A stretch of 64,000 nucleotides of DNA from NCBI GenBank assembly GCA_937925855.1, contig CALAMO010000025.1, positions 1 through 64,000 on the forward strand. Direction: 5' to 3'. Positions 26,939 through 58,161 of the stretch are shown one piece after another. The stretch's first letter is position 1; every line of letters starts with the position of its first letter. The notes below the pieces were generated by a model. It was given only the letters and a program-made list of their open reading frames with translations. It did not search any database and was not told the origin of the DNA. The position numbers and the translations under genes are program-made. This stretch comes from an uncultured Thiotrichaceae bacterium (GTDB taxonomy: Bacteria > Pseudomonadota > Gammaproteobacteria > Thiotrichales > Thiotrichaceae).

Positions 26939-27350
26939 AGCGTCTCTCTTGATGAACTGATGCAGTGTTGGTGTTGTCTTATACCCAGCGAATGCTATGA
27001 AAACGTATGGGTTACTGATTATGAAGGCGTAGACTTCTATGCTGATTACGGCGCTGTACAGGATGTATCTGATACGTTTTTATCGTTAGTATAGCGGAAT
27101 AATGGACAGAGAGTGCTGGCGCTGATAAATGTCAAAGCATGTGCTCAATGTCGTTGTATACTCTATAACAAACAGTGCCAGGTTCGATGTAGCCGCAGAC
27201 GGGTGAAAAGATAAGCCTCCCCCCTGCGGATTTCCTGGGTTTTTGTTGAGAGTGTAATCCTACTGTTTGCATGGTTGCAGGCTTGCATACCGGAAGGGAC
27301 ATTCCTTTATGCGCGTTACAATAATGTAGTATTTTTTAATGGAGAGTTAA
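26939..27350. other. 412-base intergenic region, no gene supported
   Basis: This region lies between ppk2 (leftward) and the IalB-like gene (rightward). A 60-codon plus-strand reading frame begins inside the ppk2 antisense strand and has no ribosome site, so I do not call it. The stretch GTTGTATACTCTATAACAA at 27153 is an imperfect inverted repeat and might be an operator. Nothing else stands out. Confidence 0.5.
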
Positions 27351-43540: not shown

Positions 43541-43996
43541 TTAAAGCGCGGCGGGTATGACCGCATCCACCGCAATTTCTACCATCATGCCCGGTGTTGT
43601 CAGTCCGGCTTCCACACCAGCAGTCACTGGATTAATGCCGCGAAACACTTCGCCGTGTGCGCGCACAAAATCAGCGCCGCCCGCCGCCATATCGCTTAGG
43701 TACACCGTGGTGCGCACCACATGCTTGAGTTCGGCATCGACCTCAGCCATTGCTTCCTCAATGCGGCGCAGAATATAAAGTGTCTGCGCATAAGTATCGC
43801 CCGGCGCATGGAGCTGACCACTCGGTTCAATGGCGGTGGTACCGGCTACATACACGAGTGGCCCAACGCGCTTCACCCTGGAATAGCTGCCGATTGCCTC
43901 AAAGCGGCCACCGCTGAAAACCGTGCTAATGGCTACGCCGGATTCCTCGGTAGTTTCAGTATGCAGTGGCGCCGCTGTTGCGCTTGCCGGTTTCAT
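43541..43996 (-). CDS. Rid (YjgF/YER057c) family protein, BMC-associated, lacks catalytic Arg
   Basis: Last gene of the BMC operon; a 151-residue Rid-superfamily protein (RVGPLVYVAGTTAIEPSG, HVVRTTVYLSDMAAGGADFVRAH, VEAGLTTPGMMVEIAVDAV). Canonical RidA enzymes use Arg105 in the FPARSCVEV segment to hydrolyse reactive enamines/imines. The matching segment here is NPVTAGVEAG, with threonine in place of that arginine. It therefore belongs to a Rid subgroup of uncertain activity. An N-terminal extension of about 20 residues (KPASATAAPLHTETTEESG) precedes the fold and might aid packaging. It overlaps the malate dehydrogenase gene by four bases. Confidence 0.85.
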   Translation of the reverse strand: MKPASATAAPLHTETTEESGVAISTVFSGGRFEAIGSYSRVKRVGPLVYVAGTTAIEPSGQLHAPGDTYAQTLYILRRIEEAMAEVDAELKHVVRTTVYLSDMAAGGADFVRAHGEVFRGINPVTAGVEAGLTTPGMMVEIAVDAVIPAAL

Positions 43997-45180
43997 TGGG
44001 CAGCCCCTAGGCGCACTTTAATGGCAGCCGCAGCCTGTTGCAGTTGGCTCAGTTCCTGTGCGGACAGGGGGAGTTCTTCCACCACGAGCAGGCCAGACTG
44101 ACCCAAGTGGCAGGGCACGCCCAGTACGACGTCATCAATACCGTATTCACCTTCTAGCAGCACAGAGACCGGCACCGTGCCGATACGCGCACTGCGAATA
44201 TGGTCAATCACCTCAATACAGGCATGGGCTGGCGCAATGGTTGCTGAGCCGGTTTTTTTGAGCTGTACGACCTGACCGCCGCCGCCAATCGCCGCTTGCA
44301 CGCACTGCTGAATTTGTTCCGGGTTCAGCCAGGCATCCAGTGGCCGTCCTTTAATGCGTGAATGTGACACAATCGGTGCCATTTCTGCACCATGTGAGCC
44401 TAGTGTTAGCGCCTCCACATCGCGTACTTCAACGCCAGCAGCCAGCGCCAGTGCCGTGCGAAACCGACTGGTATCTAGCGTGCCCGCCATCCCCAGCACC
44501 TGCTGGCGGGGAAAACCGGTGACGTCCAACATGGCCTGTGTCATTTCATCCAGCGGGTTGGTGATGACAATAACAATCGCCTGTGGCGCGTGCGTGGCAA
44601 TGGCACTGCCGGTGCTGTGAATAATGCGCTGATTAATGTCGATCAAATCGGCCCGTGTCATTCCAGGGCCACGGGCACGACCAGCACTGACGACCACAAT
44701 ATCGGCGCCAGCAACCAACGATAAGTGAGTGCCGCCCTCGGTTCGACTGCGTGAGCGACTCACGCCTGCGGCGTGGTTTAAATCCAACGCGGTCGACTCG
44801 GCTAAGCCGGGTGCAATATCAATCAGACTGATTTGTTCCGCCATATCCCGGTTAGCGGCGAGGTGGGCGATGTTGGTTCCGACGCCGCCTGCGCCGATCA
44901 GTGCCAGTTTGCCTATCCGCATTGGAGTACGTGCCGTCACCTGTTTGGGGGCGACCCAGCGTGGACTGCGTCGCCATAAGGCACGCCGAGCGGCGGTTGC
45001 ACCATCCGTGACAACTGGGGCGGGGCGCTCAAATGGCCCAAGTTCTAGCCGGATACCTAGACGCTCGGCCATTTCCTGAGCTTCGGTGGTGACAATATCA
45101 TCGGGCAGAATTTCCACCCGGCGGCGGGCGCGGTCGCGCGCTGCGATAATGTGTTCGGCGGCTATAAGTCGGCGCGGCAT
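43993..45180 (-). CDS. malate/lactate dehydrogenase with EutQ-like N-terminal domain (BMC-associated)
   Basis: A 395-residue fusion. Residues 1-50 (PRRLIAAEHIIAARDRARRR and then DDIVTTEAQEMAERLGIRLE) resemble the start of EutQ (KLITANDIRAA and IITPEAREVAELLG), a BMC protein. A linker follows. From residue ~90 comes an NAD-dependent dehydrogenase: LIGAGGVGTNIAHLAA, an aspartate in SLIDIAPG favouring NAD, the substrate arginines in GRARGPGMTRADLIDIN, ITNPLDEMTQ, MAGTLDTSRFR and the catalytic histidine in LGSHGAEMAP. The first of those arginines points to malate/oxaloacetate rather than lactate. It probably reoxidises NADH inside the shell. Confidence 0.85.
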   Translation of the reverse strand: MPRRLIAAEHIIAARDRARRRVEILPDDIVTTEAQEMAERLGIRLELGPFERPAPVVTDGATAARRALWRRSPRWVAPKQVTARTPMRIGKLALIGAGGVGTNIAHLAANRDMAEQISLIDIAPGLAESTALDLNHAAGVSRSRSRTEGGTHLSLVAGADIVVVSAGRARGPGMTRADLIDINQRIIHSTGSAIATHAPQAIVIVITNPLDEMTQAMLDVTGFPRQQVLGMAGTLDTSRFRTALALAAGVEVRDVEALTLGSHGAEMAPIVSHSRIKGRPLDAWLNPEQIQQCVQAAIGGGGQVVQLKKTGSATIAPAHACIEVIDHIRSARIGTVPVSVLLEGEYGIDDVVLGVPCHLGQSGLLVVEELPLSAQELSQLQQAAAAIKVRLGAAQ

Positions 45181-45244: not shown

Positions 45245-45865
45245 TCATGCACTTTTCCCTTCGATGGCTTCAATCGCCTGCGTCGCAGCGACTATCGCAG
45301 TTTTGACATTCTCTTCATCCCCACAAATAAAAAGTCGCCCAAAGCGACCCACAGCGCGCACCTCTACAATATCGATGTCCGCCGATTTTTCCGCTTCATT
45401 CGTCGCAATAGCGATATAAGCCGCCGGTGCGCATTCCACAATCCCAACCGTTTGTCCCGGCACAATGAGTGCGCCTTTGCGCCACTTATTGAGCAGTTGT
45501 GCCTGATAAGGCTCGATGCTGGTAATAATCTGGGTGGAAGCCATCTCGGGTTTAATCCGATCTGCTAGGGATTGGCCCAGCTCAGCCAGAATGGCCTCTC
45601 GTGCCGCAGTGACTTCTGCGTTGGAGTGCGAGCGCAGGATAAAAAAGCCAAATTCGCGCTCAACAATCTGTGAGGTGGTTTCGACCGAGCTGGCTTTCAG
45701 TGCCCGATCAATCAGGGTGAAAACCCCATTTCCCGGTGCGAACTCACCGATTAGCACCGTATCGCCTGCCATGGGAATAGAGCCTTGCACGGTTGCACCA
45801 TTGTAAGCCGCAAACTTAGGCTGAAGGTTGTCGATTTGTAGTAGTGCGCGAATGGTAATCGCCAT
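45245..45865 (-). CDS. BMC-T (tandem-domain) microcompartment shell protein
   Basis: A 206-residue protein with two fused BMC domains, forming pseudohexameric trimers in microcompartment shells. Domain one runs to about residue 100 (ALLQIDNLQPKFAAYNG, EFGFFILRSHSNAEVTAARE); domain two follows (ALIVPGQTVGIVECAPAAYIAIATNEAEKSADIDI, GRFGRLFICGDEENVKTAIVAA). Trimers of this class often carry larger pores that pass cofactors or bigger metabolites. It starts two bases after the aldehyde dehydrogenase stop on the same strand, inside the operon. It is the only BMC-T gene present. Confidence 0.92.
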   Translation of the reverse strand: MAITIRALLQIDNLQPKFAAYNGATVQGSIPMAGDTVLIGEFAPGNGVFTLIDRALKASSVETTSQIVEREFGFFILRSHSNAEVTAAREAILAELGQSLADRIKPEMASTQIITSIEPYQAQLLNKWRKGALIVPGQTVGIVECAPAAYIAIATNEAEKSADIDIVEVRAVGRFGRLFICGDEENVKTAIVAATQAIEAIEGKSA

Positions 45866-45867
45866 AA

Positions 45868-47247
45868 TTATTCCCCATAAACCTCATAAATATCGCGCCA
45901 GGGCCGGTTTTCATAGGCGACCCGCTTAATATTAATCAGATGCAGCGCGGTGACATTATCGGATGTGATCGAGCCTGACCACGTTCCAGTGCCCAGCATA
46001 AAACTTGGTTCCAGGTCAGTCGAAAACCCCATGCCTCCCATAATGGCGGGTGTATTAGCCAGCACGCGCCCCACCGGAATCCGTGAAAATGCGGAGACGA
46101 TTTCTGGCTCGTTGGCATGTACTACCGCTGAGTGACCCCAGCCTTCAAAGCGCGCAATACGATCCGCCAGTTGCAGACCGTGTTCGCTGTCTTTGGCCTG
46201 ATAAAACGCTAGCACTGGATTTAGTTTTTCCGCCGACAGCGGGCGCTGCCAGCCAATCTCGCTTTCCTCTGACACCAAACAGCGGGTGCGCGGTGGAATG
46301 GAAAAACCGGCTTTATCAGCTAAGACCTGTGGGCTCTGTCCAACATGATTTGGGTTCATCGCCTGCTTGCCGGTGAAAATCACCTGTGCCAGCCGCTCGG
46401 CCTCGGCGGGCGTACAGAAGTAGGCGCCCCGCAGTTTGAGCTGGTGGCGTAATTCACGCGCAATGGACTGATCCGCAATCACGGCCTGCTCTGATACGCA
46501 GGCTGTGCCGTAGTCAAAGGCTTTGGACGTGATAATCATCTCCGCCACTTCATCCAGCTCGTCGGTTTTGGAGGCGTGGACATAACACGGCACATTACCC
46601 GCCCCCACCGCTAGGGTTGGCTTACCGGATGAATAGGCCGCTTTGACCATTGCGGGGCCGCCGGTCGCCATCACAATGGAGGTGCGGCGATGTCGCATCA
46701 ATTCGGCAGTGCCTTCTAAAGTGACCTGATCCAGACACTGAATCAGTCCCTTGGGTGCGCCCATCTGTTCGGCCACATCCGCCATGATTTTGATGGTTGC
46801 CTGGCCACACCGCAGGCCGCGCGGATGGGGTGCACAGACAATCGCATTACCCGCTTTCACTGCGGATAAGACTTTATAGATAATGGTCGACGTTGGATTA
46901 GTCACTGGAATCAGCGCGGCTACCACGCCCATCGGCACGCCCAGTGCTGCAATTTTGGCGCGATCATCACGCCATAGCACGCCTAGCGTCGTCACATCGC
47001 GCAGATAGTCCGCCACCGACAGCGCATTAAATAGGTTCTTAACGCGCTTATCGGCCACATTACCATAACCCGTTTCCGCCACCGCCAGCTCGCCCAACCG
47101 TTTGGCTTCTGGCTCAATTGCCCGCGCCATGGCCTGTACGATGTCATCAATCTGCTGGGGGTCGGTATGTAGAAAACGGTTATAGGCTTCCCAGGCTTTT
47201 TCGGTAGCCCGGCGGGCGCTGGCGATGGATTGCAGGTCTTTATCCAT
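45868..47247 (-). CDS. CoA-acylating aldehyde dehydrogenase (BMC-associated)
   Basis: A 459-residue dehydrogenase of the EutE/PduP/AdhE/SauS branch, which converts an aldehyde plus CoA and NAD+ to acyl-CoA. Signature segments are AETGYGNVADKRVKN, GVVAALIPVTNPTSTIIYK, GNAIVCAPHPRG, TGGPAMVKAAYSSGKP and the catalytic cysteine C250 in FDYGTACVSEQAV. The pattern is nearer to AdhE or sulfoacetaldehyde dehydrogenase than to PduP. GGAGG five bases before ATG 47247 fixes the start, overlapping the preceding stop by eight bases. Its helical N-terminus (DLQSIASARRATEKAWEAY) may also be an encapsulation helix. No phosphotransacylase gene is seen nearby. Confidence 0.9.
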   Translation of the reverse strand: MDKDLQSIASARRATEKAWEAYNRFLHTDPQQIDDIVQAMARAIEPEAKRLGELAVAETGYGNVADKRVKNLFNALSVADYLRDVTTLGVLWRDDRAKIAALGVPMGVVAALIPVTNPTSTIIYKVLSAVKAGNAIVCAPHPRGLRCGQATIKIMADVAEQMGAPKGLIQCLDQVTLEGTAELMRHRRTSIVMATGGPAMVKAAYSSGKPTLAVGAGNVPCYVHASKTDELDEVAEMIITSKAFDYGTACVSEQAVIADQSIARELRHQLKLRGAYFCTPAEAERLAQVIFTGKQAMNPNHVGQSPQVLADKAGFSIPPRTRCLVSEESEIGWQRPLSAEKLNPVLAFYQAKDSEHGLQLADRIARFEGWGHSAVVHANEPEIVSAFSRIPVGRVLANTPAIMGGMGFSTDLEPSFMLGTGTWSGSITSDNVTALHLINIKRVAYENRPWRDIYEVYGE

Positions 47248-48457
47248 AGGTGCCTCCGTGCTGCGCCGCTGCGCCGCTGACAATACGTTCGATAGCCGAG
47301 CGGGCGTCGTCGATATTGTCGGCCTGTATGCCGATATTATCTAAGCGCCGCCCGGCACTTTGTAAGTCGCCGTCGAGTAAGGCTGAACCCAGCTGGATCA
47401 TGGATTGGGTCAGGGGCGTTGCGATACCGGCTAATGCGGCGGCGGAGACTAGCGGGGCGAGTGAGCCGATAATGGCTGAGCGCAACATCGCATGGCTTTC
47501 CGCCACGCTGGGTACGGCACGCATGCCTTCGCCCTGAGCGGTACCGGCATATTGATCCAGTAATGTCTCCACCGCTGCTAAGTCGCGCACGCCATAGGCC
47601 TGTGCAATGCGACAGCGTTCCTGCCAGAGTGCGGTGATTAGGCTGATATGTCCGTCTCCAAGCAGGTTACGGAAGTTATGGTTCTGCGCCAGTGCTACGC
47701 CGCCATAGGGCACCTCTGGCCCACCGCTAGGTAAGGCGCACCCACCCAGGAGTAGGGCGGGTGCATCCACGACGGAGGAACCATCATGAAAACCACTGTG
47801 TAACGCGGAGTGTACCGCAGTAAGATTCGGAAAAATCGCCGCCAAGCCGCTGAGTACGGCTTTATTTTGCGCGGGTAAACAGGCCGCCGCGACCGCACTT
47901 CTGCGCGCTAAATGCAACGCGCCGTTTTGCTCATTCACCCAAAAGGGTAAACCCGGAATATCTACCAGGGTGACAGCAGCCTGACAGCCGCCTATGCGCA
48001 GCAGCCAAGCGACCTCAACGCAGCCAAATGTGCGCGCATTCGGTAATACGACGACCTGACCTTCATGCAGGTGATCCGCTAACACCATCGCGTACGTTCG
48101 CTGCTTATGCACCGGGCCGGTGAGGATAATCACCTCGGCCGCGTTAATCGCAGTATCCAGCTCAGCGCTGGTCTGAATCGACGGGCCGCTGCTTTGATCG
48201 ACATGAAAGCTGCCAATCGGGCCTGCACCACGCAGGGTGATGGCTCCTCGGCTACGGAGGGCGGCCAGCTCACTGCCATAGGCGGAAAAAAGACTCACTT
48301 CCAAGCCAGCCGCGAGTGCGACTGCCGCCAGCATGCGTGCTTCCGCATCCCCGCCCAGAATAGCGATTTTCCGGTAGTGCGGCATTGTGGCTAGGGGGCG
48401 GTCGGGGCGGCTGCGACTGACCGCAGCAGCAAACTGCTCAAATTCTCCGGTACTCAT
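47240..48457 (-). CDS. opine/octopine dehydrogenase-like protein, BMC-associated
   Basis: A 405-residue protein with a Rossmann N-domain (KIAILGGDAEARMLAAVALAAGLEVSLFSAYG) and a helical C-domain (LHSGFHDGSSVVDAPALLL, DGHISLITALWQERCRIAQAYG, then a long helix bundle), the build of opine dehydrogenases that reductively join an amino acid and a 2-oxoacid. The dinucleotide loop is GGDAEA instead of GGGNGA, so cofactor binding is uncertain. Residues 1-24 (MSTGEFEQFAAAVSRSR then PDRP) form a short amphipathic helix plus linker, like a BMC encapsulation peptide. It lies 33 bases after the BMC-H gene. Confidence 0.72.
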   Translation of the reverse strand: MSTGEFEQFAAAVSRSRPDRPLATMPHYRKIAILGGDAEARMLAAVALAAGLEVSLFSAYGSELAALRSRGAITLRGAGPIGSFHVDQSSGPSIQTSAELDTAINAAEVIILTGPVHKQRTYAMVLADHLHEGQVVVLPNARTFGCVEVAWLLRIGGCQAAVTLVDIPGLPFWVNEQNGALHLARRSAVAAACLPAQNKAVLSGLAAIFPNLTAVHSALHSGFHDGSSVVDAPALLLGGCALPSGGPEVPYGGVALAQNHNFRNLLGDGHISLITALWQERCRIAQAYGVRDLAAVETLLDQYAGTAQGEGMRAVPSVAESHAMLRSAIIGSLAPLVSAAALAGIATPLTQSMIQLGSALLDGDLQSAGRRLDNIGIQADNIDDARSAIERIVSGAAAQHGGTYG

Positions 48458-48490: not shown

Positions 48491-48799
48491 CTAACTTGCC
48501 GAACCCACCAGATTATTAATCAGCGTTTCTGTCTCGCTGTCTGGGCGTGGAATAATGTGTACTGCCACGAGTTCGCCCACTTTATTCGCTGCTGTTGCAC
48601 CTGCGTCTGTGGCCGCTTTCACCGAACCGACTTCGCCGCGCACCAGCGTAGTAATGAGGCCGCCACCGGCTTTTTCCTGGCCGATAATAGTAACGTTAGC
48701 AGCTTTCACCATCGCATCCGCTGCTTCAATCGCAGCGACGATGCCACGGGTCTCGATCATGCCCAGTGCGGTTTGACCTGGGGTTGGTTTTGTTGCCAT
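48491..48799 (-). CDS. BMC-H microcompartment shell protein (hexamer-forming)
   Basis: A 102-residue single-BMC-domain protein that forms the hexameric tiles of the shell facets. Visible segments are [60 protein letters not shown] and VAVHIIPRP. The pore loop is AGGGL where PduA has GSG. It is the only BMC-H gene in the window, so facets would be made of one hexamer type plus the BMC-T trimer. GGAG in the ACAGATG upstream region is replaced by AAGGAGCAACAG, a good ribosome site. Third gene of the operon. Confidence 0.96.
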
Positions 48800-48865: not shown

Positions 48866-49132
48866 TTATCCGTTCTCTACGCGATCAATAATCGCCACCA
48901 GACAAGCGTCCACTGGTCGGCCAGCGACGCTACTGACGACCCGCGCCGAAGAGCCTTCTACCAGCACGCACAAATCGCCGACACCGGCACCACAGGCATC
49001 CGCAGCCACAATGCTTTGTGTCAGCACTTTACCGCTGGCATTTTCAATATCAGCGAGCAGCAATTTCTGTGAGATCAAGCTGCTATCCCTAACGGTTGCG
49101 GTGAGCGTGGCGGTGACACGGGCGAGGCGCAT
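48866..49132 (-). CDS. BMC-P (EutN/CcmL) microcompartment vertex protein
   Basis: An 88-residue pentamer-forming vertex protein of the EutN/CcmL family: MRLARVTATLTATVRDSSL, KLLLADIENASGKV, AADACGAGVGDLCVLVEGSS, then the conserved SAR and PVDACLVAIIDRVE. It closes the corners of the icosahedral shell. Its ATG overlaps the TGA of the glutamine-synthetase-like gene by one base (TGATG), showing tight translational coupling. A 66-base gap follows before BMC-H. Confidence 0.95.
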   Translation of the reverse strand: MRLARVTATLTATVRDSSLISQKLLLADIENASGKVLTQSIVAADACGAGVGDLCVLVEGSSARVVSSVAGRPVDACLVAIIDRVENG

Positions 49133-50424
49133 CAGAGGTTCCCCATATACCGGTCAAGTTCGACCTGAGTCACCTGATTCGCCATAAATTCCAGTTCACG
49201 TTCCGCCTGTTGGGCGAGGATTTCAAAGCGGTGCTCACCAATAACGGTTTTCATGAAATCAGAACCCCGCGCCAGTGCCAGCGCAGTTGGCAGGTCAGCC
49301 GGAATCGCTTCGGCATCTTCCAGCTCATAGGCATTGCCCAGGCAGGGCTCACCGGCCTGCATATTCTGCTCAATCCCATCCAGTCCGGCAGCAATCTCAG
49401 TCGCCAGCAGGTAATAAGGATTACAGTCAGCGGAACCGTCGCGTTTCTCAATGCGCACCGCGTTGTCTTTGCCCTCAATCACACGCAGGCCAACGGTACG
49501 GTTATCGTAGCCCCAGGCGGTGTTAATCGGGCAAAAGGTGTAAGGTTGGCGACGACGGTAGGCGTTGGGCGTGGTTGAGTTCGCCAGTGCCATTTCGGCC
49601 ATACGCTTTTGCAGGCCAGCGAGGAAGGCTTTACCAGTGTCATTGAGTTTGCCACCGTCAGCGAAAGCGTTTTTGCCGTCTTTCCATAAGGAATAATGGG
49701 TGTGGAAGCCGTTACCGGATTCTTCGATAAAGGGTTTGGCCATAAAGGTCGCCATATAACCCTGGGACTGGGCCAGTTCACGCACCAGATTTTTGAACAT
49801 AATGACCCGATCGGCGGCCTGTAGCGCTTCGCCGTAGCGGATATTCACTTCGACCTGACCCGCTGCATATTCCGGGTTGGATTGTTCTATCGGGATGCCC
49901 ATGTCGTTAATATCGCGCCGGATGGGGCCAAGTACGTGTTCCAGCTGGGCGGCACGGTCTAAGCCGTAGACCCCAATGCCCCGATCACGCGGCTGTTTGG
50001 TTTCTGGGTCAAGCAGATAAAATTCCAGTTCAGTGCCGACATTGACTTCGTAGCCCATGGCTTGAGCGCGTTCGACCTGAATTTGTAGCGCCTGACGCGG
50101 ATCAATTGGCACCGGCTTGTGATCTTTATCAACGCTGTACGCCATGCAGAAGGCAACTCCCGCTTCCCACGGCACAGCGACTGGCTGGGTCAGCGGCATG
50201 AAGTGAGCGTCGGGATAGCCATTGTCAAAGTTTACATAGGGGGTATCCCAAACATCACAAGTCATATCGATGGCGAATAAGGCGCAGGACATGGCGATGC
50301 CATCTTCACAGACAGCAGGCCAGTGGCTGGCTGGAATACGTTTACCCCGCATAATGCCATTCATATCGCCGATGCCCATGACGACGGTATGGGTACCCAC
50401 AGGCAGAGAGAAATCAGTGCTCAT
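49132..50424 (-). CDS. glutamine synthetase-family ligase (PuuA/GlnT-like), BMC-associated
   Basis: First gene of the BMC operon: a 430-residue ligase of the glutamine synthetase fold. N-terminal MGIGDMNGIMRGKRIP is PuuA-like. The active-site segments are GTELEFYLL, NPEYAAGQVEVNIRYG, NGFHTHYSLWKDG, TTPNAYRRRQP and VRIEKRDGSADCNPYYLL. It has no C-terminal adenylylation loop of housekeeping GlnA and is linked to shell genes, so gamma-glutamylation of an amine (as PuuA does to putrescine) is more likely than ammonia assimilation. AGGAGGA directly precedes the ATG. A palindromic operator lies 29 bases upstream. Confidence 0.9.
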   Translation of the reverse strand: MSTDFSLPVGTHTVVMGIGDMNGIMRGKRIPASHWPAVCEDGIAMSCALFAIDMTCDVWDTPYVNFDNGYPDAHFMPLTQPVAVPWEAGVAFCMAYSVDKDHKPVPIDPRQALQIQVERAQAMGYEVNVGTELEFYLLDPETKQPRDRGIGVYGLDRAAQLEHVLGPIRRDINDMGIPIEQSNPEYAAGQVEVNIRYGEALQAADRVIMFKNLVRELAQSQGYMATFMAKPFIEESGNGFHTHYSLWKDGKNAFADGGKLNDTGKAFLAGLQKRMAEMALANSTTPNAYRRRQPYTFCPINTAWGYDNRTVGLRVIEGKDNAVRIEKRDGSADCNPYYLLATEIAAGLDGIEQNMQAGEPCLGNAYELEDAEAIPADLPTALALARGSDFMKTVIGEHRFEILAQQAERELEFMANQVTQVELDRYMGNL

Positions 50425-50452: not shown

Positions 50453-50469
50453 CTGTATACAGTATACAG
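50453..50469. promoter_or_regulatory. palindromic operator upstream of the BMC operon
   Basis: CTGTATACAGTATACAG is a perfect palindrome with 8-base arms around one central base. It begins 29 bases before the ligase ATG. The heptamer GTATACA is repeated, then followed by GTATCAG. The same 15-bp core occurs upstream of the FAD oxidase at 55365-55379. The TGTATACA half-site resembles those bound by GntR-family regulators, but no such regulator is in the window. Confidence 0.75.
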
Positions 50470-50672
50470 TATCAGCTAAATTTCAAGTATGGGTTTAAAA
50501 AAATCTGACCGGGGTGCGGTATGGCGGCTGGAATGCTTTGGGTGCAGCGTTAGTTTTTGGATAAGGGCGCATGTTAGAATGCTGCGCAGCACGTTATGCC
50601 GACCTTGTGGTATATCGTATCGATCATCGCATTTTATGCCATCCAATGTTGCACCAAATTCTGGGAGTTGCT

Positions 50673-51335
50673 ATGCCGTTACTACCTGCTGTTGAAATCG
50701 AACCGCCCGTGCCCGCTACCGCCAGTGTGATCTGGCTGCATGGTCTGGGGGCAGATGGCCATGATTTTGAGCCGGTGGTGCCCCATCTTGGCCTGCCACA
50801 AGACGCGGGGGTGCGTTTTATTTTTCCGCATGCGCCGAAGATCCCAGTAACGATTAATAACGGCTTTGTTATGCCCGCTTGGTATGACATCTTAGAAATG
50901 AACCTAGACCGGAAGGTTGATGTGCCGCAGTTAGAGGCCTCGGCGGCGGCGGTGCATGCGTTTATCGAGCGCGAGATTGCGCGAGGTATCCCCGGTGAGC
51001 GGATTATTATTGCTGGATTCTCTCAGGGTGGCGCGGTGGCCTATCAGGCGGCATTGACTTATGACAAACCGCTGGGCGGATTGCTGGCGCTGTCTACCTA
51101 CTTTGCGACAGCGGAGTCGATTGAGGTGCATGCTGCGAATAAGGCGCTGGCGATTCGGATTATGCATGGCACAGCGGATGGCGTGGTGCCGGAGAGTCTG
51201 GGACGGACGGCGCAGGCTTTGCTGACGGAGATGGGTTATGCCCCTGAGTATGTGACCTACGCGCTGGAACACAGTGTCAGCATGGAGGAGCTACAGGATA
51301 TTGGAGGCTATTTACGGGCGTGGTTGGTGGATTGA
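50673..51335 (+). CDS. carboxylesterase/phospholipase of the APT1-like alpha/beta hydrolase family
   Basis: A 220-residue serine hydrolase. The catalytic triad is Ser in AGFSQGGAVAYQ, Asp in HGTADGVVPE and His in LEHSVSMEEL. The N-terminal SVIWLHGLGADGHDF and FPHAPKIPVTINNGFVMPAWYDI segments are typical of the bacterial EstB-like carboxylesterases. I choose ATG 50673 because GGGAG lies five bases before it. A longer in-frame extension upstream has no matching family sequence. It is divergent from the BMC operon and could share its operator region, though nothing links its function. Confidence 0.9.
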   Translation: MPLLPAVEIEPPVPATASVIWLHGLGADGHDFEPVVPHLGLPQDAGVRFIFPHAPKIPVTINNGFVMPAWYDILEMNLDRKVDVPQLEASAAAVHAFIEREIARGIPGERIIIAGFSQGGAVAYQAALTYDKPLGGLLALSTYFATAESIEVHAANKALAIRIMHGTADGVVPESLGRTAQALLTEMGYAPEYVTYALEHSVSMEELQDIGGYLRAWLVD

Positions 51336-51421
51336 TAAACGAAGCATGATGTCTATCAAAAACACCTGTGAGCCGTGTTGAGGAATAGGCGCTATGTGAT
51401 CAAGCTTAAACAGAGCTCAAA

Positions 51422-52099
51422 TTAGTTACTCATTATTTCATCTTCTGGTGCGTACATTTCCAGGCGTGCATTTTCGATTTGATAGCCCGCTTGCGCTAGG
51501 TCTGTGGTTACCGGCTCAACTTTGATTTCGCCAATCACCCATACCGGCTGGTAAATATCCGACATTGGGATGCTTTTACCTTCCTGCGGTTTAACTAAGA
51601 CGGTTTGATTAATCGGTGGCGGCGGTGAATGAATGCAACTGCCGAAATAGGGCACTAGCAGAAACTCGCCGACGACGCCGTTGTTCTCATCCAGGGGGGA
51701 CACAAAGCCGGGGATTTTAACCGTTTTACCCGCCAGGGTTGCATCGGTAGGCGCGCGGTTAAACTCGTTTTTGATTTTAGTGAAGAGTTCGATTTCCTCT
51801 GGCGAACCTTCTTCGATGGCATCAATTTGGCTGCGGTATTTGGCGATTATGGCGTCTGGGCGGAAACCCTCGGGCACCAAATCTTCCCACATAATGTTAT
51901 TAATTTCCGTAGTCGCCTCCGTTGAGGCTGTTTCAGCGGCGGGAGCAGGCTGGATGACATCTTTAATGTCAGTCCCTATTGCGGGCGCGTTCTCCGGCAG
52001 GCTGTTAGTGGCGGAGACGGTTTGGATAGACGTATAGCCATAGGCACCTAGCAAGAGGGTGGCCGCTAGGCCAGCAACGAGGAACAATTTTATGCGCAT
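51422..52099 (-). CDS. DUF3299 protein, ZrgD-like, exported
   Basis: A 225-residue protein with an N-terminal membrane anchor or signal peptide (FLVAGLAATLLLGAYGY) and a DUF3299 domain: MWEDLVPEGF, KTVKIPGFVSPLDEN, EFLLVPYFGSCIHSPPPPINQ, YQPVWVIGEI. It is the last gene of the zur-zrg operon, five bases beyond the permease stop. In Vibrio cholerae a DUF3299 protein belongs to the ZrgABCDE zinc-acquisition system. The role of the domain itself is not known. A conserved Cys-His pair in SCIH may bind metal. Confidence 0.85.
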   Translation of the reverse strand: MRIKLFLVAGLAATLLLGAYGYTSIQTVSATNSLPENAPAIGTDIKDVIQPAPAAETASTEATTEINNIMWEDLVPEGFRPDAIIAKYRSQIDAIEEGSPEEIELFTKIKNEFNRAPTDATLAGKTVKIPGFVSPLDENNGVVGEFLLVPYFGSCIHSPPPPINQTVLVKPQEGKSIPMSDIYQPVWVIGEIKVEPVTTDLAQAGYQIENARLEMYAPEDEIMSN

Positions 52100-52104
52100 T
52101 TTTT

Positions 52105-53364
52105 TTAAACCTTGACGGTTAATCCGTCCTGTAGAGAGCGTTTATAAGCGATCCAACCCGGAATGATGCTGAACAACATCGCTAATAAAATGACTAGTGC
52201 GAGCAGCAGCCAGTCAGCGCTTTGCGGCAGCCAATAATTTAAGTATAAGCCATACGCATCAGCAATCCAGGGTTGAGCGAAGCCTACTACAAACCCGGTG
52301 ATCAGCATGCCGCCTAGCCCGCCTAGCACGGCGATAATGCACGCTTCCAAGATGAACAGCAAAAAGACCTGGCCGGGATAAGCACCGACGGCGCGCAGTA
52401 TCGCCATTTCGCGCCGTCGCTCATTCAATGTCGATAATAGCGTAGTCAGCATACCCAATAGCCCGGCAATGAGGACAAAAACCGTGATAATCCTGAGCAC
52501 AATTTCAAACTGCCCCAGCGCATTCCACAGCTCGGCCAGTGCGACCCCTGGAAGGGTGGCAAGCAGGGCTTCGCGCCGGTAATCATTAATTTCACGTTGC
52601 AGCCGAAAAGCCGCACTGCGAGTTTTCAAGCCGGTCAGAAAAGCGGTAATCACTTTGGGTTGCAAGTCCATTTTAGCCACGCTGGCCGCTGGTAAATCCA
52701 ATTCAGGCGCGATTGCACCATCTTCCCAGCCAACGTGAATCGCCTCAATGCCTTGCAGCGAGACGTGCACAGTACGATCGACGGGTGTGCCGGTGGGCTT
52801 CAAAATACCGGTGATGGTAAACGGCTTATTCTCATGTTTGGTAAAGCTGGTGGGGCCAGCCCCATGGGCTAATATAATCGTGTCACCGACTTTATAATCC
52901 AGCTGGGTCGCGACCTCAGCGCCAACGACGGTGTCAAAAACGCTTTGAAAGGGTGCGCCGGACTGAAAGGTGAGATTTTGCTTATTGGCGTAGCGGTAGT
53001 ACTTAAAGTAATCGGTGTTGGTGCCCAGAACGCGGTAACCCCGGTGCGAATCGCCCAGCGACAGCGGCACCGTCCACTTGACCCATTTATGCTGCGCAAA
53101 GTGCTGGTAGCTGTCCCAGCTAATATTATTGGTAGCATTGCCAATGCGGAACACGCTATAGAGCAATAGCTGTACTGGCCCACTGCGGGCACCGACCACC
53201 AGATCCGTACCGCTGATGGTGCTCATAAAGCTGTTGCGCGCTTCTTTCCGAATGTATTCGACGCCTAATAATAGCGCGATACTAATCGCGACTGAGAGCA
53301 GCGTCAGCAGCAGACTGACGCGCCGATTCCATAAACTTCGCCAGGTGAGCTTGAGTAATATCAT
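52105..53364 (-). CDS. ABC transporter permease (FtsX/MacB-like), Zrg system
   Basis: A 419-residue permease with the MacB-type plan: one N-terminal helix (VSLLLTLLSVAISIALLLG), a large periplasmic domain, then three C-terminal helices (VLRIITVFVLIAGLLGMLTTLL, VFLLFILEACIIAVLGGLGGML, WLLLALVILLAMLFSIIPGWIAY). The segment NERRREMAILRAVGAYPGQV is the FtsX signature. It overlaps the ATPase gene by four bases. MacB-type transporters usually move substrates out or move lipoproteins; here its role with the zinc-binding ZrgA is by analogy with Vibrio. Confidence 0.88.
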   Translation of the reverse strand: MILLKLTWRSLWNRRVSLLLTLLSVAISIALLLGVEYIRKEARNSFMSTISGTDLVVGARSGPVQLLLYSVFRIGNATNNISWDSYQHFAQHKWVKWTVPLSLGDSHRGYRVLGTNTDYFKYYRYANKQNLTFQSGAPFQSVFDTVVGAEVATQLDYKVGDTIILAHGAGPTSFTKHENKPFTITGILKPTGTPVDRTVHVSLQGIEAIHVGWEDGAIAPELDLPAASVAKMDLQPKVITAFLTGLKTRSAAFRLQREINDYRREALLATLPGVALAELWNALGQFEIVLRIITVFVLIAGLLGMLTTLLSTLNERRREMAILRAVGAYPGQVFLLFILEACIIAVLGGLGGMLITGFVVGFAQPWIADAYGLYLNYWLPQSADWLLLALVILLAMLFSIIPGWIAYKRSLQDGLTVKV

Positions 53365-54035
53365 GCCTGATTGACCTCGGCCAGTTCGATCACACGTGGG
53401 AAATGGGTGGCGATATGCGGATCATGACTGACAAAAACTACCGTGCTGTTTTGCGCATCGGCCTGATCAAACAGCAATTTGAGGAAGGTATCACGGGTAT
53501 CACTGTCCAAGGCGGAAGTCGGTTCATCCGCCAGGATAATCTCCGGTTGGCCGATGAGCGCCCGCGCCACGGCAACGCGCTGCTGCTGGCCGACGCTCAG
53601 CTCAGTGACCGGTTTTTGCTGTAGCGCTGCATCCAGCTTCAGGTGGGCTAACAGTTCGGTGGCGGTGGTTTGCACATTAGCGGCGCGTTCCCTACGACGC
53701 GCAGAGAACTGACAGGGTAGAACGACATTTTCCAGCGTCGATAAATACGGCAGCAGGTTAAACTGCTGGAAAATCACTCCCATATGTTGGGCGCGGAAAC
53801 GATCTCGTGCCGTGGCGCGCATCGCATGTAAGGGCTGTTCCAGCAGGCGCAGTTCACCGCGGGTGGGCGATAAAATGCCCGCCAGCAAATTTAACAGCGT
53901 GGTCTTGCCGCTGCCGCTAGCACCGCGCAGAAAAGCATGTTCTCCGCGCTGAATGGCTAGCTCAGGAATATGCAGCGTGTCCTGTGTTTGTTTAGGCCAG
54001 CGGTAAGTCAGCTGGCGCAGTTCAATGACGTTCAT
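53361..54035 (-). CDS. ABC transporter ATP-binding protein, Zrg system
   Basis: A 224-residue MacB/LolD-type ATPase. Walker A is GASGSGKTTLLN, the Q-loop region is MGVIFQQFNLLPYLSTLENV, the signature is LSVGQQQRVAVARAL, Walker B is IILADEPTSALD and the H-loop is VFVSHDPHIA. It pairs with the permease encoded next, with a four-base overlap. It begins 24 bases after the zrgA stop. Confidence 0.93.
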   Translation of the reverse strand: MNVIELRQLTYRWPKQTQDTLHIPELAIQRGEHAFLRGASGSGKTTLLNLLAGILSPTRGELRLLEQPLHAMRATARDRFRAQHMGVIFQQFNLLPYLSTLENVVLPCQFSARRRERAANVQTTATELLAHLKLDAALQQKPVTELSVGQQQRVAVARALIGQPEIILADEPTSALDSDTRDTFLKLLFDQADAQNSTVVFVSHDPHIATHFPRVIELAEVNQA

Positions 54036-54059
54036 GGCTGAGGTTTTATCGGCTGATGG

Positions 54060-54704
54060 CTAGGGCTTTAGGCTAACGGTGCCGTCTTGTTCCAGCTCAG
54101 CCTTACCCGCATTGGAAGCGGTCACCCATTCAACGTCAATCTCCTCAAAACCCTGTGGAAACGCACTGAATAGTTTAACGTTGACGCTGTCAATGGCCGC
54201 TGGTTGAGCGCAGTGATAGGCCCAGGTCGCGTCGACGTCGCTGTGCGTGCTCTTGTCAGCGGCATGCTTATCATGGTCGTGCTCGTCGTGCTTCTCAGCC
54301 TTGTCATGGTCGTGCTCGTCATGCTTCTCGGCATCATGGCGGGTGGCTATAGCAGACTCGACGTTGGCACTTTCTAGTTTACAGGCCGCCGCGTCGTTGA
54401 TAGCGAAGAGCGCTGCGCCGTCTTGCAGGGTTTCTAGCGCGGCATGCACGACCTCATGCTCGGCTTCGCTCTTGGCGTTATGCTCAAAGCCAAAGACGTT
54501 AGCGGCCGGGGATTCCAGCATAATCTCTAGGCCATCTTCGGTGGCGGCGATTGTCAGGCGGGCAACACCGTGTTCATGGCTGCCGTGTTGTTCCATGTCA
54601 TGCCCATGTTTTTCTGCCAGCGCAGTCTGAGAAGCAAGGGCGATTAGTAGTGCAGCGGCAAGCGGTACAAGCTTCCGCCCGTTGTGATGGGCTTGGGTTG
54701 GCAT
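54060..54704 (-). CDS. zrgA: ZrgA-like DUF2796 zinc-binding periplasmic protein
   Basis: A 214-residue exported protein (signal peptide ending near TALAEK). It begins HGHDMEQHGSHEHGVARL, the DUF2796 signature, and carries a central His/Asp/Glu-rich segment (HDEHDHDK repeated) that presumably captures zinc. The encoding DNA has two imperfect 33-bp tandem repeats at 54268-54333. The ATG at 54704 is preferred to an upstream in-frame start because it places the signal peptide at the N-terminus. It follows zur and precedes the ABC genes, as in the Vibrio zrg system. Confidence 0.88.
   Translation of the reverse strand: MPTQAHHNGRKLVPLAAALLIALASQTALAEKHGHDMEQHGSHEHGVARLTIAATEDGLEIMLESPAANVFGFEHNAKSEAEHEVVHAALETLQDGAALFAINDAAACKLESANVESAIATRHDAEKHDEHDHDKAEKHDEHDHDKHAADKSTHSDVDATWAYHCAQPAAIDSVNVKLFSAFPQGFEEIDVEWVTASNAGKAELEQDGTVSLKP
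54268..54333. repeat. two 33-bp tandem repeats in zrgA
   Basis: Two adjacent 33-bp units (54268-54300 and 54301-54333) differ at a few positions and encode AEKHDEHDHDK twice. They lengthen the metal-binding histidine stretch. Such units may vary in number among strains. Confidence 0.8.
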
Positions 54705-54727
54705 GGTGGTTTTAAATCCTATGGCAA

Positions 54728-55177
54728 TTATGGGGAGGTTGCGAAGCACTGTTCACACAGGCATTTCATCTCAAGCTGCGAGCTGGTTAAGTGAAAGCCT
54801 GCCTCGCTTATATTTTTGTGCAGGTCGCTGATGGTCGATGGATTGATATTGATTTCCTTAACGCGCTGACACTGGCTGCAAATCAGAAACTGAGTGACAT
54901 CATGACCGTGGTTACAGGTAATGTGGGAGCAGGCGACATATTTATTATTCGAGCTTAATTTATGGACGAGATGCTCCTCATCGAGGAAGTCCAAAATCCT
55001 GTACACCGACATGGCGGGCATGGTATTTCCAAATTCACCTTTACAGTAATCTGCAATTTCGTAGGCGGACATGGCTCGTGCGGACTGGAGTAGGCCAGAG
55101 AGCACCTGTTTCCGCTTACGGGTGAGATTCAGTCCCTGCTGTTCGACGTGTTGCAGGGTTGCTTGTACGTTGCTCAT
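54728..55177 (-). CDS. zur: Fur-family zinc uptake regulator Zur
   Basis: A 149-residue Fur-family repressor. The N-terminal winged helix has LTRKRKQVLSGLLQ and MSVYRILDFLDEEHLVHKL. The metal-binding half has HITCNHGHD, ICSQCQR and CLCEQC, the cysteine pairs of a structural zinc site. Its placement ahead of zrgA and three transport genes indicates Zur rather than Fur. A candidate Zur box 37 bases upstream suggests autoregulation of the whole operon. Confidence 0.9.
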   Translation of the reverse strand: MSNVQATLQHVEQQGLNLTRKRKQVLSGLLQSARAMSAYEIADYCKGEFGNTMPAMSVYRILDFLDEEHLVHKLSSNNKYVACSHITCNHGHDVTQFLICSQCQRVKEININPSTISDLHKNISEAGFHLTSSQLEMKCLCEQCFATSP

Positions 55178-55213
55178 AGACGTTTACAGTGTCAGTTGTT
55201 TTAAGAATACAGG

Positions 55214-55236
55214 GAAATGATACATCATATCTTTTC
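55214..55236. promoter_or_regulatory. candidate Zur box
   Basis: GAAATGATA and TATCTTTTC are 9-base arms with one mismatch around CATCA. The 23-bp site agrees at about 17 of 22 defined positions with the gammaproteobacterial Zur consensus as I recall it (GAAATGTTATA, N, then its inverse). It lies just upstream of zur and would let Zur-Zn repress zur-zrgABCD. Confidence 0.65.
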
Positions 55237-55364
55237 TGGCGTCAGCATGTCATTCGGCCAAATCTTCGCCGCAGCCAGAGGATTGCAGCGGTGATAAGCC
55301 GCCATGGCCGCACAGTGTCTGCGCGTTTGTTCGGCCCCACCTTTTATTGCACTCCCGTCAAATT

Positions 55365-55379
55365 TGTATACAGTATACA
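55365..55379. promoter_or_regulatory. palindromic operator upstream of the FAD oxidase, identical core to the BMC operator
   Basis: TGTATACAGTATACA is a perfect palindrome with 7-base arms. It is the same 15-bp core as the one upstream of the BMC ligase. It ends 32 bases before the oxidase ATG, where a repressor would block a promoter. Immediately to the right both copies also share TCAGCTA on the plus strand. Confidence 0.75.
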
Positions 55380-55411: not shown

Positions 55412-56551
55412 ATGCGTAAAACCGAAGTCATTGTTGTCGGAGCCGGTATCGCCGGTAGCATGTCTGCACTCGCGCTGGTGCGACAGGGCCACCGCGTCAC
55501 CCTGATTGATCGCTGGGAACCCGGCCATGCTCGCGCCTCTTCTACCGACTATAACCGTATTATTCGTTCGATCCACGGGCGCGATGAGTTCTACACCCAA
55601 TGGGCGCGGGATTCGCGTCTGCGCTGGTTGGAGCTACAGGAGGAGACGCGCCAGAAGCTGTATTACGAATGCGGTTCGATTATTCTGGCGACTGTGGGGC
55701 ATTGTGACTGGGAGGATGCGACGGCGGAAACCTTCACCAAAATGGGGGTGCCGTTTAATCGCTTCGCACCGCACGAGCTACCAGCGCGCTTTCCGCAGTT
55801 TGAGGCTACGAATATTGCCTATGGCCTGTACGAACCCGAATCTGGGATGATTATGGCGCACCGGGCGGTGATTACCACGGTGCAGCTGTTCCAAAGTCTT
55901 GGTGGTCGCGTCGAGCGCGGCAGTGTGACCACTGATGCGGATGAGCGGCTGCTGCTGGCCGGTAAACCGCTGGAGGCGGATCTGATCGTGGTCGCCACCG
56001 GGCCGTGGATGGGGGAGATGTACCCGCGCACGGTGAAGCCGATTAGCACGGTGATTGGGGTGAATGTGCTGTATACCTCGACCCCAGAGGGCAGCGACCA
56101 ATTCGACCAGAGCCGCATGCCCTGCTGGATTGACCATGGCGAGGGCTCGTTTGGGTTGCCGTCGGTGGAAGGCAGCGGCGTGAAAGCGGCGGTGGTGATC
56201 CCGGATAAGATTGATTTGGATAATGACGAGCGCCTGATTAAAAAGGCGATGTTGGGGCGCACGCGGCAGTATATTAAGAAGCGGCTGCCGGGCCTTGTGG
56301 GTGAGAAGGTGGTGGATTCCAAGTTTAATCAGATCATTATCACCCCGGATACGCATTTTATTCTGGACTGGCATCCTGCCTATGACAACGTGCTGCTCGC
56401 GGGCGGATGTTCGGGCCATTTATTTAAGCATGGGCCGGTCTTTGGCGAGTTTGCCGCCGGGGTCGGCACGCAGCAGTTCGGCACGCCGGATCGGTTTAAA
56501 TTAGGGCCACGCCGGAAATTATCACCGAAAGAAAGTCCATCGGGGCGTTAA
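55412..56551 (+). CDS. FAD-dependent amine oxidase/dehydrogenase (DAO family, sarcosine-oxidase-like)
   Basis: A 379-residue flavoprotein similar in length and plan to monomeric sarcosine oxidase and N-methyltryptophan oxidase. The FAD-binding dinucleotide fold is VIVVGAGIAGSMSALAL with the acidic VTLIDRWEPGHARASS, and the C-terminal FAD segment is LLAGGCSGHLFKHGP. The covalent-flavin cysteine of MSOX is replaced by N306, so FAD is probably held non-covalently. It likely oxidises a secondary or glutamylated amine to an imine/aldehyde. The shared palindromic operator ties it to the BMC operon. Confidence 0.87.
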   Translation: MRKTEVIVVGAGIAGSMSALALVRQGHRVTLIDRWEPGHARASSTDYNRIIRSIHGRDEFYTQWARDSRLRWLELQEETRQKLYYECGSIILATVGHCDWEDATAETFTKMGVPFNRFAPHELPARFPQFEATNIAYGLYEPESGMIMAHRAVITTVQLFQSLGGRVERGSVTTDADERLLLAGKPLEADLIVVATGPWMGEMYPRTVKPISTVIGVNVLYTSTPEGSDQFDQSRMPCWIDHGEGSFGLPSVEGSGVKAAVVIPDKIDLDNDERLIKKAMLGRTRQYIKKRLPGLVGEKVVDSKFNQIIITPDTHFILDWHPAYDNVLLAGGCSGHLFKHGPVFGEFAAGVGTQQFGTPDRFKLGPRRKLSPKESPSGR

Positions 56552-56583: not shown

Positions 56584-58161
56584 TTAAAAACCGCTGGTAT
56601 CAGCCTTAAACATTATGCGGCCAATCATTTTGCGCCAGAGGGTTGAATAGTGCCGCTTTTCTTTGATCTGTACGGCCCGTACGCACAGCCATATAGCTAG
56701 CCATACGCCGGAAAATAAGAGGGCGGTTTTAAATAAGGCGGAGCCACTGAAGCCCTGGAAACCGATGTAAATTGCAAAACACAACAGAATAATAGATTGT
56801 AATCCAACGGTAATATAGGCCGATTTTTTTCTTATCCAGGTGAGGATTTTAGTGGATTCAGGGGGTGCAGCATTTTGCTGTTGGCCCAATCGCCGATAAA
56901 GCTTGGCAAATTCAAAGGTTGCCGCTGTATCCTCATTACCGCCAACAATTTCAAAGTCAGTGGGCATATTGCCAGGGGAGTATTCCTGTGTGCGCTGAAT
57001 AATGCGATCAAACACCGTGACATGAATACGTGGCAGGCTGTTTAATTGTTTAACCGCATGATTATTCTTCGATAGTATTTTATTGCGCTCTGGCGTGGTT
57101 TCATTGATTAATTTTCTTATATCGCGCACTTCATAGGCATAGTAGGCCGCTATACCGGCGCGTGAATCATAAAGTCGATCATGCACGTCTTTGTTTTCAC
57201 GAAATTGCCATTTGTCCTCATCCACAAACACCAGTCCGGCTTTCTCAGCCTCCGCCATCATCCAGACCAAGGAGGTCCAGGCCATACCCTGTTTGGGGTA
57301 GCCGCCCCCGACATTGGCGTGCACCCCGGCGAACCAGACCTGTTGAATGCGGTCATGGTCGTTCGCATAGGTTTCTTCCCACAGCACCGGGATGAACACG
57401 CGACGCTGGTCATCGATGGACAGGGCGTGGCGTGCGATTAACACCTTATCGCAGAGCGTGCGGTCATGGTTGCGGAACGAGGTATTAATCACAGCATCAA
57501 AGGCTCTGGCTAGGCGGTCACTGGGAATACCATAAGCATCAACCGTGTCCCACACGCCGATAAAGGCGATCTGCTGGCTGTCTTCATGCGCGCTATAAGA
57601 CTGGAGGATATGGTCGGGCTGCATGTCAGGCTGGAGCAGGAAGTGGAAAAAATCGGCCAGGGTACGCAGGTGGCGGTAGCTATCCGGTGAGGAATCAATT
57701 TTCTTAGCTTTCTGCTTGTCTTTGTATTTCTCAAATAAGGCGTTGACGACCTGCTGTAAATCCTGATCTGACTGATGGGTAAAGTCCGACTTTTTAATAA
57801 TGCCAAAGGTGGTAATCATCCCCGCCAGCAAGCGCACGGTATAAGCGCCACGGCTAAAGCCAAATAAATAAACGCGATCACCGGGTTCATAATTATTCAC
57901 GAGGAATATATATAAATCTTTTATTATCCGGTCGAGGCCAATGCCCACGGCTCCGCCCATAATGCGCCATATTTTATTATCATCGGTGCCGACCCCATCG
58001 TGATAGTAGGCGACCTGTTTTAATTCATCGGGGTTATCTTTATGTTTCTGTCGCTCAATCGCCGTATGTAAACGCCAGACATTGGAATCATACTTGCGGC
58101 CACCCGCATTACCGGTGCCATCCGATGATAATATAATATTTTTGGGTCGGGTGCCTGCCAT
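56584..58161 (-). CDS. DUF2235 alpha/beta-hydrolase with C-terminal membrane helices
   Basis: A 525-residue protein with the DUF2235 domain: N-terminal NIILSSDGTGNAGG, YYHDGVGTD, the nucleophile elbow LFGFSRGAYTVR (S103), and GVWDTVDAYG and FAGVHANVGGGY further on. Two hydrophobic helices near residues 445-500 anchor it in the membrane. The family includes Tle1 phospholipases delivered by type VI secretion and many uncharacterised proteins. There is no immunity protein or VgrG gene here, so an effector role is unsupported. It is divergent from the TIR gene, 119 bases apart. Confidence 0.85.
   Translation of the reverse strand: MAGTRPKNIILSSDGTGNAGGRKYDSNVWRLHTAIERQKHKDNPDELKQVAYYHDGVGTDDNKIWRIMGGAVGIGLDRIIKDLYIFLVNNYEPGDRVYLFGFSRGAYTVRLLAGMITTFGIIKKSDFTHQSDQDLQQVVNALFEKYKDKQKAKKIDSSPDSYRHLRTLADFFHFLLQPDMQPDHILQSYSAHEDSQQIAFIGVWDTVDAYGIPSDRLARAFDAVINTSFRNHDRTLCDKVLIARHALSIDDQRRVFIPVLWEETYANDHDRIQQVWFAGVHANVGGGYPKQGMAWTSLVWMMAEAEKAGLVFVDEDKWQFRENKDVHDRLYDSRAGIAAYYAYEVRDIRKLINETTPERNKILSKNNHAVKQLNSLPRIHVTVFDRIIQRTQEYSPGNMPTDFEIVGGNEDTAATFEFAKLYRRLGQQQNAAPPESTKILTWIRKKSAYITVGLQSIILLCFAIYIGFQGFSGSALFKTALLFSGVWLAIWLCVRAVQIKEKRHYSTLWRKMIGRIMFKADTSGF

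Follow-up and report, generated by a model that had tools for sequence, protein, structure and literature searches.

The described systems closest to the one reported here are the N-methylglutamate (NMG) pathway, the gamma-glutamylputrescine (Puu) pathway, the aldehyde metabolosomes among bacterial microcompartments (BMCs) and, as regards regulation, the E. coli regulator NanR. In the NMG pathway, GmaS produces gamma-glutamylmethylamide, NMG synthase yields N-methylglutamate, and a dehydrogenase releases glutamate and formaldehyde (PMC6237917). NanR, a GntR-type repressor, binds cooperatively to three short repeats, (GGTATA)3 (PMC8012715). Using a 64,000-nucleotide stretch of DNA from an uncultured Thiotrichaceae bacterium (assembly GCA_937925855.1, contig CALAMO010000025.1, positions 1 to 64,000; hereafter, the window), its 3.57-Mb draft genome and loci of relatives, we analyzed a 15-bp palindrome, TGTATACAGTATACA, which lies ahead of a BMC operon, a gene for an FAD oxidase and two further units on other contigs. 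It is very likely that one regulator is common to all four units. We consider it probable that the four sites answer to a regulator of the FadR type (GntR/FCD), with the protein encoded on contig C58 as the most likely candidate, and that the products of these units convert an amine, through an N-alkylglutamate and an aldehyde, to an acyl-CoA.

The system resembles the NMG (GmaS-MgsABC-MgdABCD) pathway in that a ligase similar to glutamine synthetase (GS) and a three-part MgsABC share one operator type, and in that glutamate would carry the amine. It differs in the presence of an FAD oxidase, an opine-dehydrogenase-like enzyme and a BMC, and in a GS-like protein that is not closest to GmaS; the genes examined in the four operons include no mgdABCD, and the rest of the genome was not searched for them. 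As in aldehyde metabolosomes (EUT, PDU and MIC/MUF), genes for BMC-H, BMC-P and BMC-T shell proteins and for an acylating aldehyde dehydrogenase stand together in one operon, which is the gene set of a metabolosome BMC, and MIC1 also carries a lactate/malate dehydrogenase (PMC4207490). Unlike those systems, this operon contains no ammonia lyase, diol dehydratase or phosphotransacylase, and has the GS-like and opine-dehydrogenase-like genes instead. What is shared with NanR is a GntR-type regulator and short units, repeated at intervals of less than one helix turn, at several catabolic promoters (PMC8012715); here, by contrast, the unit is GTATAC at a 7-bp period, and each unit is palindromic.

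The window contains two exact copies of the palindrome:

50454..50468, + strand: core 15-mer of the putative operator that precedes the BMC operon, with GTATAC units at a 7-bp period; the start of the GS-like gene (50424, - strand) is 29 bases away
55365..55379, + strand: core 15-mer of the putative operator that precedes the FAD oxidase gene, whose start codon (55412, + strand) is 32 bases away

A first-pass annotation of the window had reported these two copies, at 29-32 bases from start codons and with no third copy, as well as an esterase and a zinc operon between the two target genes. The letters agree exactly at both positions, the distances and the absence of a third exact copy were reproduced, and the intervening genes are an esterase gene and a DUF3299/ABC/ZrgA/Fur-family cluster. 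Allowing up to three mismatches added one weak site, at 27155, and none of 100 shuffles of the window matched the observed palindrome count. The draft genome contains four exact copies versus approximately 0.004 expected (0.02 if 60% AT), and a reversed-pattern control has no match in it at up to two mismatches. All four copies lie 25-41 bases ahead of start codons: besides (i) the BMC operon and (ii) the oxidase gene, these belong to (iii) a GntR/FCD regulator gene and an mgsABC-type operon on contig C58, with the site between them (41 and 25 bases, respectively), and (iv) a transporter operon on contig C22. The annotation had proposed a genome scan at up to two mismatches, with a GntR-like regulator and transport genes to be sought under the same site; the scan returned these four exact sites, all upstream of the regulon units, and both kinds of gene were found.

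Two weak sites with two mismatches elsewhere in the genome, C14:32084 and C16:109219, were set aside as near-chance. The former (L011:6085-6099) is 40 bases before an open reading frame (ORF) whose translation reads by eye like a TRAP binding protein, with a neighbouring ORF that reads like a D-amino-acid dehydrogenase, and this site may be due to chance; the latter is inside an ORF that reads, again by eye, like a biotin carboxylase.

The C58 regulator (L010:8534-9184) has both domains of its family above the gathering thresholds (PF00392, 68.9 bits; PF07729, 88.7 bits). The adjoining operon encodes a class-II glutamine amidotransferase domain, a GXGXG protein and an FMN glutamate-synthase domain (Pfam GATase_6, GXGXG and Glu_synthase), a composition that corresponds to the three-part layout of N-methylglutamate synthase, and we refer to it as mgsABC-type. 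On C22, the site precedes a fused LivM-LivG gene, followed by genes for a branched-chain-type binding protein, LivF and LivH. The distance of 41 bases is to the second possible start of the fused gene; from the first, at 24 bases, a stop is reached after six codons.

An origin of the sites as a mobile or structural repeat, or by chance, was rejected on the basis of genome rarity, conservation in relatives and start-codon spacing, and its probability appears negligible. Identical copies can spread as repeats, the genome has a palindromic repeat family of approximately 103 bp, and the transporter and mgsA sites have flanking letters in common up to the ribosome-binding region. Nevertheless, the operator alone is common to all four sites, all of them keep the same range of distances to starts, and the site is conserved at the same genes across alpha- and gammaproteobacterial loci.

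Loci of relatives were the best 80 of 188 confirmed ones from a scan with the GS protein, with one genome per species. The BMC class (57 of the 80) comprises loci that show at least one of a shell gene and the orthologous oxidase, including L028, whose contig ends after showing only the oxidase and GS; a culturable relative with the locus is Ruegeria sp. ANG-R (L090). The common order is the oxidase gene (-), followed on the + strand by genes for GS, BMC-P, BMC-H, opine dehydrogenase, aldehyde dehydrogenase (ALDH), BMC-T, malate dehydrogenase and Rid. The oxidase gene is divergent from GS in all 56 loci with both visible (the 57th, L088, begins inside GS), and the region between the two genes holds a site in 55 of these. 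With up to two mismatches, sites were present in the fetched DNA of 55 of the 57 BMC-class loci, all five loci with GntR and without a BMC, and one of the 18 loci with neither. At up to one mismatch, each of the eight shuffled control palindromes that were counted (20 were made) had 0-1 matches in the relatives' loci, compared to 173 for the real palindrome, overlapping positions included.

The mgsC gene is in the fetched DNA of 32 of the 57 BMC-class loci, mostly with GntR adjoining, and a Liv-type transporter follows in many loci. Clear orthologues of the window genome's transporter (54-74%) adjoin the locus in L019, L033, L050, L079 and L094. For the 25 BMC-class loci without mgsC in the fetched DNA, 21 genomes were tested (L026, L028, L029 and L030 were left out), and an mgsC orthologue with 83-90% identity was found outside the fetched stretch in 20; most of the alignments cross one stop codon, probably the gene's own end. 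A site with up to one mismatch lies 1.65-1.77 kb upstream of mgsC, approximately at the mgsA start, in 16 of the 20 genomes; the contig of G059 starts at that point, and no such site was seen there in G065, G071 or G075. Altogether, 20 of the 21 genomes have sites at this threshold, and the reversed control had one match in total. The genome under study appears to carry a dispersed version of a locus that is often single, with an operator for each piece. The non-BMC loci L019, L050, L079 and L094 contain GntR, Rid, the transporter, mgsABC and GS, and in two of them operator-like sites lie near genes for a DAO-family oxidase and for an aldehyde dehydrogenase that scores strongly with Pfam Aldedh (L050, 13004-14615; L094, 12725-12739), which suggests that loci of this type represent a soluble version of the pathway.

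The 15-mer belongs to a more extended array in which GTATAC recurs at intervals of 7 bases. Across 140 clusters of sites collected from relatives at up to two mismatches, five of the 15 core positions show no variation, and 81 clusters include at least two overlapping matches, typically spaced by 7 bp. GTATAC is itself palindromic and agrees by eye with the consensus of the FadR subfamily of GntR regulators, GTM-N0-1-KAC, and weaker additional boxes 7-12 nt from the centre are a known trait of GntR sites (PMC4494728). The putative operator is better seen as GTATAC units at a 7-bp period than as an isolated 15-mer, and it looks like an ordinary GntR-type operator. The heptamer TCAGCTA, which the first-pass annotation saw as shared to the right of both window copies, does adjoin both; however, the register of the two occurrences differs by one base, and with respect to the two genes they lie on opposite sides. 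We rejected it as a second common element: it is most likely a coincidence, because it is absent from the other two sites in the genome and from within 25 bp of all 140 clusters.

Binding of the four sites by a regulator other than the GntR protein encoded beside mgsABC seems improbable. In its favor, similar A/T-rich sites are common to many GntR-family proteins (PMC4494728), the assignment of this GntR to the sites is drawn from sequence, and GntR is outside the flank in 15 of the 39 BMC-class loci whose upstream DNA extends to 8 kb or more. These points are countered by the agreement of GTATAC with the FadR-subfamily consensus, by the position of the site between GntR and mgsA in this genome and many relatives, and by the scarcity of both partners elsewhere: among 38 related genomes, only two have a GntR match at E<=1e-20 (31% and 29% identity) and none has the exact site. 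The candidate for the shared regulator proposed in the first-pass annotation is the adjacent GntR.

The genes under the two window sites are as follows:

49132..50424, - strand: GS-like protein, probably a gamma-glutamyl-amine ligase, first gene of the BMC operon (PF00120; relatives in PDB; substrate suggested by context)
48866..49132, - strand: BMC-P shell vertex protein, EutN/CcmL family (PF03319)
48491..48799, - strand: BMC-H shell protein (PF00936; EutM-like, 114 bits, cut-off 133)
47240..48457, - strand: opine-dehydrogenase-family enzyme whose N terminus shows a helix resembling an encapsulation peptide, followed by a loose linker (1bg6 by sequence and fold)
45868..47283, - strand: CoA-acylating acetaldehyde-type dehydrogenase (TIGR02518, 495 bits, cut-off 620; 5j78)
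45245..45865, - strand: BMC-T shell protein, CcmP-like (PF00936; NF053796, 202.5 bits, cut-off 340)
43993..45180, - strand: malate/lactate dehydrogenase-family enzyme with an N-terminal extension of about 90 residues (PF00056/PF02866)
43541..43996, - strand: Rid-family protein, possibly an imine hydrolase (PF01042)
55412..56551, + strand: FAD-dependent oxidase, MSOX/MTOX-like, without the flavin-linking Cys of MSOX (PF01266; divergent neighbour of GS in relatives)

The GS-like protein falls below the cut-off in all four GS models listed, with the GmaS model TIGR03105 (222 bits, cut-off 470) about level with type I and the PuuA model NF045547 lower (190 bits, cut-off 650); it is not clearly a GmaS. 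For the FAD oxidase, the best of the 25 models shown (of 35) are those for N-methyl-L-tryptophan oxidase (182.6 bits, cut-off 257) and for soxA (170 bits, cut-off 480), PuuB is absent among these 25, and the protein appears nearest to monomeric sarcosine and N-methyltryptophan oxidases. Its Asn306 aligns with Cys315 of MSOX, which we take to be the flavin-linking residue. The aldehyde dehydrogenase, for which an ATG 12 codons inside the listed TTG is the likelier start, scores 36 against the PuuC model PRK09847 (cut-off 850).

These assignments bear on the Puu analogy, under which the first-pass annotation had added a PuuB-like oxidase to the BMC pathway and recognised equivalents of PuuA, PuuB and an aldehyde dehydrogenase. 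The connection of the oxidase to the BMC operon stands, given the divergent arrangement in relatives, and a GS-like protein, a DAO-family oxidase and an aldehyde dehydrogenase are all present; PuuB as the family of the oxidase was discarded as unsupported, the PuuA and PuuC models are far below their cut-offs, and the aldehyde dehydrogenase is of the acylating acetaldehyde type instead. For the regulon as a whole, the analogy is weakened by mgsABC, which shares the operator, is absent from the Puu pathway as presented in the accessible part of PMC9397018, and suggests a route through an N-alkylglutamate. A Puu-like route, in which the gamma-glutamylamine made by GS is oxidised directly by the FAD oxidase to a gamma-glutamyl-aldehyde and mgsABC serves a side branch or nitrogen transfer, is on balance unlikely. 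The trio recalls PuuA/B/C (PMC9397018), and a class-I glutamine amidotransferase-like gene (PF00117; L090:7630-8328 and equivalents) follows mgsC in many alphaproteobacterial loci, with 27 members in 27 of the 80 loci, three of them non-BMC. However, the best homologue of this gene in the genome under study is on contig C2 (50%), where no operator was found, and both the operator shared with MgsABC and the nearly universal mgsC orthologues in the tested BMC genomes argue against such a route.

The opine-dehydrogenase-like protein matches N-(1-D-carboxylethyl)-L-norvaline dehydrogenase, 1bg6, by sequence (E 8.9e-17) and by fold (Foldseek rank 1, TMt 0.82), with the Octopine_DH Pfam domain just below gathering (29.4 bits versus 30). 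Its predicted structure (mean pLDDT 90) shows a detached N-terminal helix, residues 3-14, and a loose linker ahead of a Rossmann fold; the helix and linker are modelled with low confidence (block mean pLDDT 67 and 52). In an alignment of 34 sequences (the window protein and 33 of 52 ORFs from relatives), F6, F9 and A12 are nearly invariant and the linker is variable. A conserved N-terminal helix followed by a variable linker is presumably the anatomy of an encapsulation peptide, and the enzyme may be BMC cargo.

In the pathway that we consider probable, the C58 GntR, divergent from mgsABC, would control its own gene together with mgsABC, the ABC transporter, the GS-BMC operon and the FAD oxidase, repressing these units until an inducer relieves repression; the location of the sites 25-41 bases before start codons suggests this mode of control. 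From the analogy with the NMG pathway, we infer the following order: an amine, either imported or formed, would be converted by the GS-like ligase to a gamma-glutamylamide, which MgsABC would convert to an N-alkylglutamate; the FAD oxidase and/or the opine-dehydrogenase-like enzyme would split it to glutamate and an aldehyde; and the acylating dehydrogenase inside the shell would turn the aldehyde into acyl-CoA. Two further roles are possible: NADH recycling for the malate/lactate-type dehydrogenase and imine hydrolysis for the Rid protein. A C2-C3 alkylamine is a plausible substrate because the dehydrogenase is of the acetaldehyde type. A more specific version, which we hold only tentatively, is a metabolosome with a glutamate-handle pathway, in which the GS-like ligase and MgsABC load the amine onto glutamate and an encapsulated signature enzyme, of the opine-dehydrogenase family, splits the N-alkylglutamate within the shell and delivers a small aldehyde directly to the acylating dehydrogenase. 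With regard to core recycling enzymes, domain and model searches matched no alcohol dehydrogenase among the operon genes, and the malate/lactate dehydrogenase-family gene may be a stand-in; the MIC and RMM types of BMC likewise lack the full core (PMC4207490).

Several observations weigh against this interpretation. The BMC class is partly defined by the oxidase, and some of the linkage counts are not fully independent. L065, which with L088 makes up the BMC-class loci without a site at up to two mismatches, has the locus; G077 has neither an mgsC match at E<=1e-120 nor a site at up to one mismatch. Among the 39 BMC-class loci that have 8 kb or more of upstream DNA, only 26 have mgsC and 24 have GntR in the flank, and the Liv-type transporter that follows the BMC genes in most relatives shares only about 25-40% identity with that of the window's genome, which in addition has a second mgsC-like gene (56%, contig C19). 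A simple scan detected no sigma-70-like promoter beside the GS site, nor on the + strand beside the oxidase site. The methylamine ligase 9qur matches the GS-like protein at 1e-31, ranked under ordinary GSs, and no phosphotransacylase match was obtained among the operon genes in the domain and model searches. Finally, NMG synthase can use methylamine and glutamate, and the order of steps is unsettled even for methylamine (PMC5023235).

The distribution among close relatives was assessed in 57 genomes, i.e., the genome under study and 56 relatives (eight of the same genus, 27 of the same family and 21 of the same class). None of the 56 has a GS match at E<=1e-100 or the exact site, both of which occur in the genome under study only; three relatives have one site each with one mismatch, compared to four matches in three relatives for the reversed control. 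In the six same-genus genomes searched, such matches as the zinc genes, esterase and antiporter have are on separate contigs; therefore, the insertion boundaries could not be set. A search for the ALDH in plasmids gave 18 records, every one with less than 60% identity.

Some neighbouring features deserve mention. Tail to tail with the oxidase gene is a gene with a T6SS Tle1-like phospholipase domain (window 56584-58161), followed at 58778-58880 by a G+C-rich palindromic repeat of approximately 103 bp that is REP- or MITE-like. The repeat is predicted to fold into a strong hairpin (z -5), and it has more than 20 matches, full or partial, on both strands of the genome and one match each in two same-genus genomes. 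Right after mgsC on C58 is a 348-aa ORF (L010:12410-13456) with no Pfam or NCBIfam match; homologues occur in six of 11 chosen BMC-class genomes versus none of six related genomes, and it is a possible accessory of the pathway. Further on, L010:14943-17863 contains a CU044_2847-family gene and a gene for a large protein in which protease-like regions and, below cut-off, FxSxx_TPR-like ones were recognised, a pair that resembles a defence or conflict module. The transporter operon is flanked by a MAD3-like AAA ATPase gene (L009:4097-5263, below cut-off) and a PIN-domain gene (L009:10911-11568), the latter preceded by a small ORF that looks by eye like an AbrB-type antitoxin.

Glutamine synthetase, pfam00120, pfam02317 and pfam01266 are absent from the accessible main texts of the 2014 and 2021 BMC catalogues (PMC4207490, PMC8217296), the supplements of which were not covered; these may already include the BMC locus among those without an assigned function. 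The open-access papers listed in the searches, which included the operator letters, BMC with GS or N-methylglutamate and roseobacter BMCs, contain no description of this system, and within these papers the link of mgsABC, the transporter, the oxidase and the regulator to this BMC locus is new. Through the common operator and the linkage across alpha- and gammaproteobacteria, this type of BMC locus is connected with a transporter, mgsABC, a GS-like ligase and two enzymes that are candidates for releasing the aldehyde. The operator can also serve as a sequence tag for locating scattered parts of the pathway in fragmented genomes. Amines are likely to be the food of this BMC type, whose job is undescribed in the accessible papers, and an orphan organelle is thereby given a testable hypothesis of amine catabolism.

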